Of a stretch of 64,000 nt of DNA, positions 1,970-64,000 are shown one piece after another (the first letter of the stretch is position 1; every line of letters begins with the position of its first letter). The notes beneath the pieces are model-generated. The model ran no database searches. It was not told the origin of the DNA and saw only the letters and a program-made list of their open reading frames with translations. A program made the position numbers and the translations under genes. This stretch comes from Photobacterium sp. DA100 (lineage in GTDB: Bacteria; Pseudomonadota; Gammaproteobacteria; Enterobacterales; Vibrionaceae): assembly GCF_029223585.1 (NCBI RefSeq), contig NZ_CP119423.1:1860001-1924000 (forward strand). Direction: 5' to 3'.

Positions 1970-2712
1970 ACATTAATGATATCTACACTCAATTATTATA
2001 CTCAACAGCACCAATTTCGGTTGAAAATGTCGATGGAACTAATGTCGAGGCTACAGCATTTTTCTATATGTTCTATGATGAGAATAAACAAAATATTCCG
2101 TTTTTGATTACCAACTATCATGTAATCGAACGCGCAAAGAGAATATACAGTGAGTTTTTCGTTAGAGAAGGCAACCTCCCTTCTAAAACAAATAAAGTTA
2201 CTGTTGAGTTGAATTTGCCCACCGCTAAAAGGTATTCTTCACCTGAACTTGACTTAGTTGCGATTCCAATTGGTCACTTAATTAACCAATTAGAAAACAC
2301 TTCGACACCGATATTTATACGGGCGATTACTTCAGATTTAGTCCCATCATTAGAACAAATCAACCAATTGTCAGCGGTTGAAAATGTAAAATATATCGGC
2401 TATCAAAAAAACTTAAGTAAATTACTGCCACTTGTACGTGGAGCTTCAACCTCTACACCGGTTTGGTCAAATTATAATGATAAGAAAGCATTCTTGATCG
2501 ACAGTAATATCATGCCTGGAGTAAGTGGTAGTCCTGTATTTATTGCTAGCCAAGGAATGTATAGTGAAAATGGTGGCATTGTCCTAGGTGGGAATCGGGT
2601 CATGTTTTTAGGTGTTGTATCCGCAGGTTTACCAAATTCATTGGGGTTGGTTTTAAATTCAGAACTGATTGACCAATTCTTGCACAGTGTCGTGATAAAT
2701 AAGAGCACTTAA
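1966..2712 (+). CDS. Trypsin-like serine peptidase of a two-gene integron cassette
   Basis: A 248-residue protein with the chymotrypsin-fold triad in order: His52 in TNYHVI, Asp96 in ELDLVAI and Ser187 in PGVSGSPVF. The FLITNYHVI stretch and the glycine-rich strand after the serine (GGIVLGGNRVMFLGVVSAG) are typical of trypsin-like peptidases and DegP relatives. No signal peptide, membrane segment or PDZ domain is seen, so it is probably cytoplasmic unless held by the upstream membrane protein. The ATG overlaps the end of that gene by 4 bp, indicating translational coupling, and attC follows the stop. Trypsin-like peptidases occur as effectors or activators in several bacterial defence modules; such a role is inference. 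Confidence 0.85.
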   Translation: MNINDIYTQLLYSTAPISVENVDGTNVEATAFFYMFYDENKQNIPFLITNYHVIERAKRIYSEFFVREGNLPSKTNKVTVELNLPTAKRYSSPELDLVAIPIGHLINQLENTSTPIFIRAITSDLVPSLEQINQLSAVENVKYIGYQKNLSKLLPLVRGASTSTPVWSNYNDKKAFLIDSNIMPGVSGSPVFIASQGMYSENGGIVLGGNRVMFLGVVSAGLPNSLGLVLNSELIDQFLHSVVINKST

Positions 2713-2812
2713 CAAAGCAATCAAGGTGACTTGTTAAACTTGACGGTTCTGGTATGGAGTTTGGTGCGCTTGGTTGGTTTATCGTGGCGCAATTTATGTT
2801 CGGCGTTAACTG
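2707..2812 (+). repeat. attC site after the protease cassette
   Basis: The left site ACTTAAC (RYYYAAC) overlaps the protease stop. The right end carries TTCGGCGTTAAC (core GTTAAC at 2805-2810). The site is about 105 bp, shorter than its neighbours. The open frame running through it (from 2731) is an artefact of the repeat. Confidence 0.75.
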
Positions 2813-61920: not shown

Positions 61921-62029
61921 TGGATCATCCTTGAAAGTGAATAAGGGATTTTAGTATGCAAGCAAATAACCGATTGGAAACCATAAAAGTGTTTAGGTTA
62001 GAGTCAGTTAACGGATCAAATTGCAAAGG

Positions 62030-62582
62030 CTAGGGAGCTTGCTTCTTGGCTGCATGCTTCGCCATAATTTTGCGTTGTTGCTTCTTTTTATCCTTGCTAA
62101 TCGTCTCATGCCGAGGTTGCTTGAGTCGGCGGCCGCCACGGAACGGCAGCTGCGTAACGACATTTGAACAAGCAACAGATAATCTCGGCGATGACGAGAC
62201 TGATAGATAAGTGGTTTGCGTTTAGTCTGGGGGAACCTGTAAAGACCATCGGCGATCATCCATTGGCGTAAGGTTTCAACCTATGAGCCTCGGACAGTTT
62301 TTCATGGGCCAGTGTCGGGCCGAAATCGCTATATTGCTGATGGAGCATAGCTAATGTCTGTAATTTTAATTTCTTATCATGGCGATGGTTGCCAGGCTGA
62401 CCACGTTTTAAGGAAACCAAACCAGCAGCACCAAATTCGATGAAGCGTTTGACCAAGCGATAAATTTGGCGAGGACTGAGTTTAAGTAAGCGGGCAGCAT
62501 CGACACCGGTGATCCGTTTATCACAGATGTCTTGGATTAGTTTGATGCTCTGTAATTCATTGTCAGTCATGGTCAATAGCAT
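62030..62582 (-). pseudogene. ISNCY-type transposase remnant, catalytic core deleted
   Basis: Three pieces of one transposase. The N-terminal helix-turn-helix region (62582 to about 62265: VDAARLLKLSPRQIYRLVKRF, GAAGLVSLKRGQPGNH, FGPTLAHEKLSE) is intact. A frameshift moves the continuation (LRQWMIADGL, KRKPLIYQSRHRRDY) to the next frame. A junction near 62175 then leads straight to the C-terminal tail in a third frame (QLPFRGGRRLKQPRHETISKD to the stop at 62030). The DDE domain between is missing, so several hundred residues were lost. Family call is from the N-terminal pattern and the subterminal TGACATTTC repeats. Confidence 0.75.
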
Positions 62583-62633
62583 CTAAAGGCTCCAAACACG
62601 GCAAAGAAAGCGTGTTTTGAAGCTAGAACAACA

Positions 62634-62666
62634 TGACATTTCAATCTGGCTCAAACCTGACATTTC
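62634..62666. repeat. Subterminal repeats of the IS remnant
   Basis: Two direct copies of TGACATTTC at 62634-62642 and 62658-62666, start to start 24 bp. Such repeats mark the ends of ISNCY/IS1202-type elements and are transposase contacts in the intact relatives. The opposite end of the element was not found. Confidence 0.6.
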
Positions 62667-62685
62667 TAACTAGATCTTACACCTC

Positions 62686-62715
62686 AGTGCGCATTATGGG
62701 TGCGTTATGTTAAAT
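62686..62715 (+). other. dif-like Xer recombination site with 8-bp centre
   Basis: Left arm AGTGCGCATTA (XerC-type, 62686-62696) and right arm TTATGTTAAAT (XerD-type, 62705-62715) are exactly the arms of Vibrio dif1. The centre is TGGGTGCG, 8 bp instead of 6. It may be the chromosomal dif, a hybrid left by an Xer-integrated element, or an inactive scar. Confidence 0.8.
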
Positions 62716-62771
62716 ACAGTCGTTGGCAAAGTTGTTAAATAACTCGAAACATCAACAGTTTAGGGGATTTA

Positions 62772-62806
62772 TTATTCAATCGGTTGATTAATGATAGATT
62801 GAATAA
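62772..62806. promoter_or_regulatory. Perfect inverted repeat before the phage-type regulator gene
   Basis: Arms TTATTCAATC and GATTGAATAA (10 bp, spacer 15 bp) end 9 bp before the ATG at 62816. The position over the translation start and probable promoter fits an autoregulatory operator. Confidence 0.6.
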
Positions 62807-62815
62807 ATAAGCGCT

Positions 62816-63187
62816 ATGACTAGTAAGTTGACCGAAAACTACATTTTTCGAAAGTTTGTCTGTGGACTGAGTAAAAAAAGGGTAGCTGAGCTATGTTTCA
62901 AATCTGTGAGAACCATCACACGTTGGGACTCGGGTCAGAAGATACCACCGGAGTGCAGACGACTAATGAAGCTCTATTCATGTAGAGATCTTGCAGCGAT
63001 TAATGACGACTGGAGAGGGTGGCAAATTAAACAAGGTGAGTTGGTGACGCCGAACGGATGGACTTTAACCCCAGACAGGATCGTAACGGGGAATGCGCTT
63101 TTACAAATCAGTGCCGAGAACGATAGGGAGATGAAGGCCGCGATCATCAGAACAGCTAGGATGTTGAAGCGATTACCTACAATTTAG
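62816..63187 (+). CDS. Phage-type DNA-binding regulator (DUF3653-like)
   Basis: A 123-residue protein. IFRKFVCGLSKKRVAELCFKSVRTITRWDSGQKIPPECRRLMKLY, read here in part, has a helix-turn-helix layout with an RWDSG turn, and VTPNGWTLTPDRIVTGNALLQI follows. This resembles DUF3653 proteins seen in Vibrio phages and phage-like elements. Its place 100 bp beyond a dif-like site and behind an inverted repeat suggests a repressor of an Xer-integrated element. DUF number is from memory of the pattern. Confidence 0.65.
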   Translation: MTSKLTENYIFRKFVCGLSKKRVAELCFKSVRTITRWDSGQKIPPECRRLMKLYSCRDLAAINDDWRGWQIKQGELVTPNGWTLTPDRIVTGNALLQISAENDREMKAAIIRTARMLKRLPTI

Positions 63188-63234
63188 TTTTTATCCCACC
63201 ACCAAAAATTACTTAATTAAAGCTGATCAAGTAG

Positions 63235-63269
63235 ATCGTGATATGAAAAATCACTAAACATATCACGAT
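63235..63269. promoter_or_regulatory. Second perfect inverted repeat in the regulator locus
   Basis: Arms ATCGTGATATG and CATATCACGAT (11 bp, spacer 13 bp) lie between the regulator gene and the next gene, about 100 bp before the latter's start. No T-run follows, so an operator is more likely than a terminator. Confidence 0.6.
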
Positions 63270-63368
63270 TTCTATACGATATTTGTTCTTCATTTTCAGT
63301 ATCTTACACACACTAAAAAATGATAAAGTAGATAGATCATAGTAAATTGTTAGATAGAAGGAGAGTAC

Positions 63369-64000
63369 GTGAATAGCTCAGAACTTTTCGAGCATATTAT
63401 GGTTGATAATAGTGAATCTAGAGCATTGTTTTTAAGTGACTTTCGTGATGAAGTCGTAGAACTTTTAGATATATTTTCACAAGCATTCAATCTTCTAGAA
63501 GAGTCACCATGTAATAATGACCCATCTAATCGAGCTTGCACTGTTTCAGGTTACATATATTTAGCTATTGAATCTGCAGTAACAGCAACTCAGTTATTAT
63601 CACTTGGTCACGTAGCTCCTGCTGGCAACTCAATGCGTATTTCTTATGAATCTCTTTGTTTTTCTGCTCTGCTCAAGAGAAAGGACAAATTGAAGGTGGC
63701 CAAAGGGAAGCATCAATTTAACTTTTATGAAGAATATATGAAAAAATCAGCTCACACTAGAGCCGATAAGGTTGTAGGCTTAGTTGTTGAAAATAAAGAT
63801 CTTCTTGGTTTGAATTCAGAAGGGGTAGACTTCTTGAAGGGGGCCAAGAACTTCTACAATGGTTATAGTCATGCATCATATCTGTTGCTTCATTCAAAAA
63901 TAAAACTATCAACGAAGCAGCTATACATTGCTGGGAATTATGACAACGAAAGAAAGGAGTTGTTTAAACAACAGCTTGAGTTTATCAAACGGTATAGCAG
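63369..64000 (+). CDS. Hypothetical protein, 3' end outside the window
   Basis: Open from GTG at 63369 (SD AAGGAGAG 63358-63365) to the window end, at least 210 residues. The protein is soluble and helix-rich; GYIYLAIESAVTATQLLSLGHVAPAGNSMRISYESLCFSALLKRK and the later KNFYNGYSHASYLLLHSK hint at a helical bundle. No family recognised. Being next to a phage-type regulator it may be element cargo. Confidence 0.65.
   Translation, partial: MNSSELFEHIMVDNSESRALFLSDFRDEVVELLDIFSQAFNLLEESPCNNDPSNRACTVSGYIYLAIESAVTATQLLSLGHVAPAGNSMRISYESLCFSALLKRKDKLKVAKGKHQFNFYEEYMKKSAHTRADKVVGLVVENKDLLGLNSEGVDFLKGAKNFYNGYSHASYLLLHSKIKLSTKQLYIAGNYDNERKELFKQQLEFIKRYS

Follow-up and report, generated by a model that had tools for sequence, protein, structure and literature searches.

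Is a site with two perfect dif arms and a centre two bases too long the dif of its chromosome, or the edge of an element that has used the dif? The question is raised by positions 62686-62715 (+ strand) of the window, by which we mean the whole 64-kb stretch of DNA that was analysed. Read from the window sequence, the site is AGTGCGCATTA-TGGGTGCG-TTATGTTAAAT, i.e. 11 + 8 + 11 bp, with exactly the sequence and coordinates of a preliminary description that had weighed a hybrid left by an Xer-exploiting element against a dif lineage with altered spacing. The arms, both of which we take to be identical to those of Vibrio dif1, are identical to those of many single dif sites of the genus Photobacterium. 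A chromosomal dif has 28 bp with a 6-bp centre; the centre of this site has 8 bp. The earlier statement that XerCD normally needs 6 bp is correct for dif; other Xer sites can deviate from it, as the descriptions of ColE1 cer (8 bp, PMC5357621) and of the 29-bp VGJphi attP (PMC4246890, Table 2) indicate.

The exact pair of 11-bp arms, at a spacing of 4-12 bp, occurs in one place in the 6.01-Mb, two-contig genome (G000), with about 6e-6 matches expected by chance if equal base frequencies are assumed. The genome-wide look for arm copies that had been proposed thus returned the exact pair at no other place. With relaxed arms and 6-bp spacing, it returned two further Xer sites, at C1:1934685 on the large chromosome and at C2:972758 on the second one. 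An E. coli-type dif consensus with 3 mismatches allowed matched nowhere in the 64-kb window. The three sites are as follows.

62686-62715, + strand: attL of the prophage in our reading, consisting of the host XerC arm (62686-62696), the phage 8-bp centre TGGGTGCG (62697-62704) and the phage XerD arm (62705-62715)
C1:1934685-1934712, + strand: large-chromosome dif, the attR side; AGTACGCATTA-TGTACC-TTATGTTAAAT, 28 bp, 12.0 kb right of the 8-bp site and beyond the window
C2:972758-972785, - strand: second-chromosome dif; AGTACGCATTA-TGTATA-TTATGTTAAAT, 28 bp, 6-bp centre

The large-chromosome dif has the same orientation as 62686-62715 and is the second dif-like site that the preliminary description had proposed to look for at the right-hand boundary of an element. 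GC skew was +0.06 to +0.08 left of the 8-bp site and -0.017 within the element; it then stayed at 0.0 for 9 kb before falling to -0.035 and -0.055 in the following 40 kb. This shift places the locus in the replication terminus region. The centres TGTACC (large chromosome) and TGTATA (small chromosome) are distributed the opposite way in some other large-contig genomes (G003, G006 and G029 among them).

We regard it as highly probable that 62686-62715 is the attL of a VGJphi-like filamentous prophage at the large-chromosome dif of a Photobacterium, an explanation that includes strand exchange by XerC only.

The element and its host flanks

The window covers the left end of the element:

62716-64000, + strand: left end of the filamentous prophage, which runs on to C1:1934684 (L005:10684) and is closed by the host dif at C1:1934685-1934712
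62772-62781 and 62797-62806, no strand: operator-like inverted repeat TTATTCAATC-15-GATTGAATAA with 10-nt arms, just upstream of the DUF3653 gene
62816-63187, + strand: DUF3653 gene, 123 aa, PF12375 with 29.7 bits (cut-off 22.4), homologous to VGJphi ORF136
63369-64000, on to C1:1924046, + strand: first cargo ORF, 225 aa

Pfam searches identified Zot (PF05707, 6e-46) and Rep_trans (PF02486, 1.7e-23) as encoded between the two sites. The gene order from left to right is DUF3653, cargo, Zot, DUF2523, a putative adsorption protein, a small coat-like protein, Rep_trans and DUF3693, the adsorption and coat-like proteins being assigned by their position in the prophage. The combination of Zot, Rep_trans, DUF3693 and DUF2523 between the sites indicates a filamentous (Inoviridae) prophage of the Zot type, 12.0 kb long. 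The cargo ORF starting at 63369 had no Pfam or PHROGs match for its part in the window, and no PADLOC match for the whole 225 aa.

The DUF3693 protein has 118 aa in all eight prophages compared. In this prophage, the last codons and the stop of the repressor-like gene (L005:10354-10710) lie inside the right-hand dif (attR). Reading by eye, we noted that the 8-bp centre would alter the reading frame and the C-terminus in the circular phage, so that the protein would differ between the integrated and the free form. A degenerate internal dif-like site, GGTAGACATTA-TATCCA-TTACGTTAAAT, was seen at L005:3255-3282, with counterparts at L170:11697-11724, L171:7065-7092 and L174:5994-6021. The idea that the phage is only the part to the right of L005:3255-3282 was rejected, because three prophages share the internal site and G028 has a variant of it, and because the DUF3653 and DUF3693 genes stand at opposite ends of one unit in 8 of 8 prophages.

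The gene at 62816-63187 and the repeat before it are present as first described, but the label "phage-type regulator" fits less well than a protein resembling an Xer activation factor. The protein matched NCBIfam NF040522 (VC1465 family Xer recombination activation factor; we take VC1465 to be XafT) with 56.4 bits (E 2.6e-15), below the cut-off of 70, and the corresponding proteins of VGJ, VEJ, VCY and two 10N phages reached 39-43 bits. Judged by its sequence, it is a distant relative of the VC1465/XafT family and not a member by the cut-off. XafT of TLCphi, which comes from a V. cholerae Xer-using element, is described as activating XerD (PMC9765430). It is thus known for XerD and not for XerC, and the help that the DUF3653 protein probably gives to the host enzymes is putative. 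An AlphaFold model was confident for the four N-terminal helices alone (mean pLDDT 79, pTM 0.50), comparison of the DUF3653 family with solved structures gave no convincing match (best E 0.26), and two relatives weakly matched an HTH family. With its four short helices, the weak HTH hits of its relatives and the operator-like repeat, the protein may also be a DNA-binding regulator.

A relative (G024) provided the unoccupied site. Both flanks are contiguous there around one 28-bp dif with the centre TGTACC; identity to the left flank is 93.6% over 409 bp, up to the XerC arm, and identity to the right flank, from the centre on, is 75.8% (query 1-617). Since the left 409 bp are mostly an IS found beside several dif sites, the right-flank match and the dif carry most of the weight of this comparison. 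A second view is given by a related prophage at the second-chromosome dif of G000. Its left site (C2:987215-987244, - strand) has the left arm AGTACGTATTA and the same centre, TGGGTGCG, and its right site is that chromosome's own dif with the centre TGTATA. Compared between the two prophages, the left junctions were identical at 32/100 positions outside attL and 115/119 inside, and the right junctions at 93/100 inside attR and 32/100 outside, indicating that host and phage DNA switch at or beside the border of XerC arm and centre at both ends. The shared TGGGTGCG on the left and the differing 6-bp centres on the right further indicate that the 8-bp centre arrives with the phage and that the host centre is retained. 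The second dif 12.0 kb to the right, the Zot, Rep_trans and DUF3693 genes in between, the contiguous flanks of the relative and the same 8-bp centre on the other chromosome all bear out the hybrid site of an Xer-exploiting element, which the preliminary description had favoured.

By eye, attC-like cassette ends were seen in the cargo of both prophages (L005:996-1083, L005:1804-1891; L170:14168-14254). They resemble five host copies in C1:1806345-1862797, including window 2710-2797, and these five look like a chromosomal integron. A cargo gene of the second-chromosome prophage (L170:13343-14170) matched the defence protein PD-Lambda-3_B (E 3.7e-87).

The host side left of attL holds one further feature:

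62008-62582, - strand: decayed ISNCY-type transposase with its HTH part at 62256-62582; 62008-62259 gave no match

The fragment matched NF033594 with 7.2e-23, under the cut-off. In the left flanks of dif in several Photobacterium genomes, at least two kinds of IS-like sequence were seen by eye to stop 5-6 bp short of the XerC arm, and the one at window 62008-62680 seems to end about 5 bp from it. This placement resembles the dif targeting of the IS1202 family, whose elements are described as ending about 5 bp from the XerC arm of dif (PMC10132070).

Right of the dif, we noticed a conserved block (L005:10803-10922, C1:1934803-1934922) with an inverted XerD-arm-like half-site, ATTTACCATAAA. The half-site lies on the reverse strand 110 bp right of attR; it belongs to the host and is present at unoccupied dif sites too. 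At 90-120 bp on the XerD side of TTATGTTAAAT, it was found in 152 of 329 Vibrionaceae genomes, 10 of 13 genera and 47 of 52 Photobacterium genomes, commonly with two copies in a genome, and a reversed control gave no hits; on the second chromosome of G000 it lies 131 bp away, outside the 90-120 bp pattern. An imperfect hairpin sometimes follows the block (DNA fold z -5.5, -1.5, -1.6, -5.5 and -4.7 at five loci), its consensus being weak, with 8 pairs of which 4 show double changes. An Rfam search beside the dif-flanking element gave a single chance-like match (E 0.15), far below the gathering score. According to Val et al. (2008; PMC2533119), no conserved motif directly adjoins dif1 and dif2 in different Vibrio species.

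Strand exchange

VGJphi is described as integrating by XerC exchange alone, since it is only next to the XerC arm that its centre agrees with dif; replication or repair afterwards resolves the junction, and excision of the prophage is possible (PMC4246890). Under such a mechanism, one end should carry the phage centre and the other the host centre, and the two should match on the XerC side only. Both predictions hold here. TGGGTGCG shares 2 leading and 0 trailing bases with TGTACC as well as with TGTATA. In the 13 prophages whose two ends could both be seen (arrays being represented by their outermost left site), the long centre of 7-8 bp was without exception at the DUF3653 (left) end, and the right end had a 6-bp centre. 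Phage and host centres were identical over at least 2 bp on the XerC side in 12 of the 13 (1 bp in G026) and over none on the XerD side in 12 (2 bp in G020). As exchange at the XerD side would place the long centre at the opposite end, the uniform polarity favours the XerC side. From the junctions we infer that strands were exchanged only at the XerC side, as is described for VGJphi, with XerC as the presumable catalyst; the pattern agrees with a reversible, XerC-catalysed integration of dsDNA.

Integration would then proceed as follows. In the circular phage, the site would be a 30-bp attP made of XerC arm, TGGGTGCG and XerD arm, and attP and dif would each be bound by XerC and XerD. One strand pair would be exchanged by XerC at the XerC side, where both centres share TG; XerD would make no exchange because the other side of the centres is unmatched, and replication would settle the Holliday junction. 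The right flank would retain the host centre and hence an intact 28-bp dif, and the phage centre would remain at attL. The adjacent XafT-like protein would probably aid the assembly or activation of the imperfect synapse.

The relatedness of the neighbouring gene product to the XafT family, a feature shared with TLCphi, raises the alternative that the XafT-like protein drives an XerD-first exchange by the TLCphi route and that the 8-bp centre is incidental to it. We consider this improbable. An XerD-first, XerC-second exchange should require matching centres, and the XerD sides are unmatched in 12 of the 13 prophages; a crossover on that side also predicts the 8-bp centre at the right end, the reverse of what all 13 show. 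The attP of TLCphi is described with a degenerate XerD site and a dif-like centre, used XerD first (PMC4246890), whereas here the XerD arm TTATGTTAAAT is intact and perfect and the centre is mismatched.

The closest likeness of the XerC-only reading is to the VGJphi class. As there, a single dif-like attP with no inverted partner lies between the gene for an ORF154-like (RstR-like) repressor and an ORF136-like gene, the DUF3693 gene here ending in attR and the DUF3653 gene following attL; the centre is homologous to dif at the XerC side only, and the order of genes from Rep to Zot is that of VGJ. Unlike in that class, attP has 30 bp with an 8-bp centre instead of 29 bp with a 7-bp centre (as the VGJphi attP reads in its GenBank record), the distance from att to gene is 88-100 bp instead of 56-77 bp (one doubtful 8-bp site has 60), the cargo region is bigger and has integron-type cassette ends, and the phages occupy the dif of both chromosomes. 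On sequence grounds, the prophage is a variant that would work like VGJphi and is set apart by the length of its attP.

Other Xer systems are more distant. At ColE1 cer, an Xer site of 11 + 8 + 11 bp, strands are described as being exchanged by XerC only (PMC5357621), but cer resolves plasmid multimers with PepA and ArgR on accessory sequences of about 180 bp, whereas the present site serves integration. CTXphi is likewise a Zot-type filamentous phage integrated via Xer, but is described as using a folded pair of inverted attP sites in an irreversible integration (PMC4246890). Two inverted attP sites about 90 bp apart, as in the CTXphi class, were not found here in a scan at up to 5 mismatches, which returned no inverted partner within the phage near attL and, elsewhere inside it, two weak hits: a direct one, and a reverse-strand one with 5 mismatches that lies 3.1 kb from the right end.

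Phage lineages and centre length

The site might still be the dif of the species, whose centre would then be longer by nature: its arms are perfect, it lies near the replication terminus, and the genome holds no other exact copy of the arm pair. Comparison with relatives makes this very unlikely. The pattern matched in 48 of 52 genomes of the genus, yet an 8-bp centre with exact inner arms was present in 6, each time 8.7-13.1 kb left of a 6-bp site; among the matches listed, all but seven 8-bp sites had a 6-bp centre, which speaks against a dif lineage with altered spacing. With a 6-bp dif 12 kb to the right, and with no site but a 6-bp one in the empty relative G024, 62686-62715 is not the species' own dif. 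A lone 8-bp site in all relatives with no element to its right, the pattern by which the preliminary description would have recognised such a dif, is not what these genomes contain.

Across the 329 genomes of the family, 7 had the exact 8-bp pattern; one of these, G121, has a poor left arm and the centre AGTAAACA, and its match looks fortuitous. In a further search, 2 of 7 hits (Shewanella and Oscillospiraceae) had poor left arms. The DUF3653 protein was found in 119 of the 329 genomes. We read upstream of the gene at 30 automatic loci, 59 further places with matches (a 60th fetched region had none), the second copy in G000, the G040 array, a viral contig and five phage records, giving 109 tblastn rows, 99 of them full-length. 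No recognisable upstream att site (up to 6 mismatches, about 450 bp) accompanied 17 of the 99 full-length matches, a few of which are repeat views and several second array copies, suggesting that gene and att site are not always coupled. Besides these 17, we dropped 10 partial rows, five with poor or distant sites (G100, G156, G121, G237, G102) and two duplicates, and retained the doubtful G223 (8 bp, 4 mismatches).

The 75 usable junctions comprised 51 with a 7-bp and 24 with an 8-bp centre, and none with 6 bp. Photobacterium accounted for 21 of the 8-bp junctions, other genera for two (one of them doubtful) and a viral contig for the last; all 24 centres start with TG. Nine 7-bp junctions were also from Photobacterium. 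On a tree of the 75 DUF3653 sequences, which has few alignment columns and many weak forks, centre length changed 4 times, compared to 20.5 times with shuffled labels, and none of 500 shuffles came as low. The 8-bp rows do not form one clade, as at least 2 of the 4 changes are forced by well-supported branches. By these sequences, the 8-bp centre is a lineage trait, mostly of Photobacterium phages. Taken alone, one genome could suggest that the left junction has decayed or been repaired, having gained its 2 extra bases by mutation once the phage was integrated, but the 24 of 75 junctions, the few changes on the tree and the identical TGGGTGCG in two species (G000, G028) and on both G000 chromosomes leave this next to no credit.

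A 7-bp centre stood in the same place in all ten VGJ-class GenBank records examined (VGJ, VEJ, VCY, fs2, Vf33, VfO3K6, Vaf1, K05K4_1 and two 10N phages), out of 70 with a related gene. Among the matches listed in a scan of viral sequences, one contig (L096) had both a long and a 6-bp site.

Rep-less units and wider meaning

Mapping of 15 loci, picked for several such genes or an odd place, revealed arrays in which att, an XafT-like gene, one or two cargo genes and att follow each other over 0.8-2.6 kb with no Rep or Zot match. Ten such mini-units were found: two in G040 (1468 and 1542 bp), one in G049 (1326 bp), two in G157, four in G185 and one in G137 (826 bp). A 2,539-bp unit of G185 is present on two contigs (1.5 and 2.9 Mb), with 2508/2539 positions identical and unrelated left flanks (74/200). 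The units stand in tandem at Xer sites (L175:3467-6506, L279, L284, L285, L286, L287, L288). We also saw a solitary 3.6-kb element away from dif in G000 (C2:1884948-1888583, - strand; L211:10948-14583), with an 8-bp att (TGGGTGCG), an XafT-like gene, two unknown genes and a degenerate 6-bp far site (4 mismatches).

No description of such mini-units was found in the titles and abstracts listed by searches of open-access literature. They resemble the dif modules of Acinetobacter plasmids as these have been described, in being small gene units bounded by Xer sites and shuffled by XerCD; unlike those modules, each has an XafT-like gene, and they lie at or near chromosomal dif beside filamentous prophages. 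Tentatively, and with rather more doubt than confidence, we suggest that an XafT-like gene and a long-centre att may form a self-sufficient mobility module, carried by filamentous phages as well as by Rep-less, virion-less stacking units, in which protein and centre length (7 or 8 bp) would have co-evolved and the protein would let XerCD use mismatched, over-long centres.

A "dif" with perfect arms can be an attL, so that dif annotation needs the centre checked. The natural pairs of 7- and 8-bp sites make the spacing tolerance of XerC-only exchange, and the roles of XafT-like proteins outside TLCphi, directly testable. Judging from the junctions alone, a centre 2 bp longer than that of dif seems to be usable by phages while the host dif stays intact, and the spacing seems to be passed on within a phage lineage.
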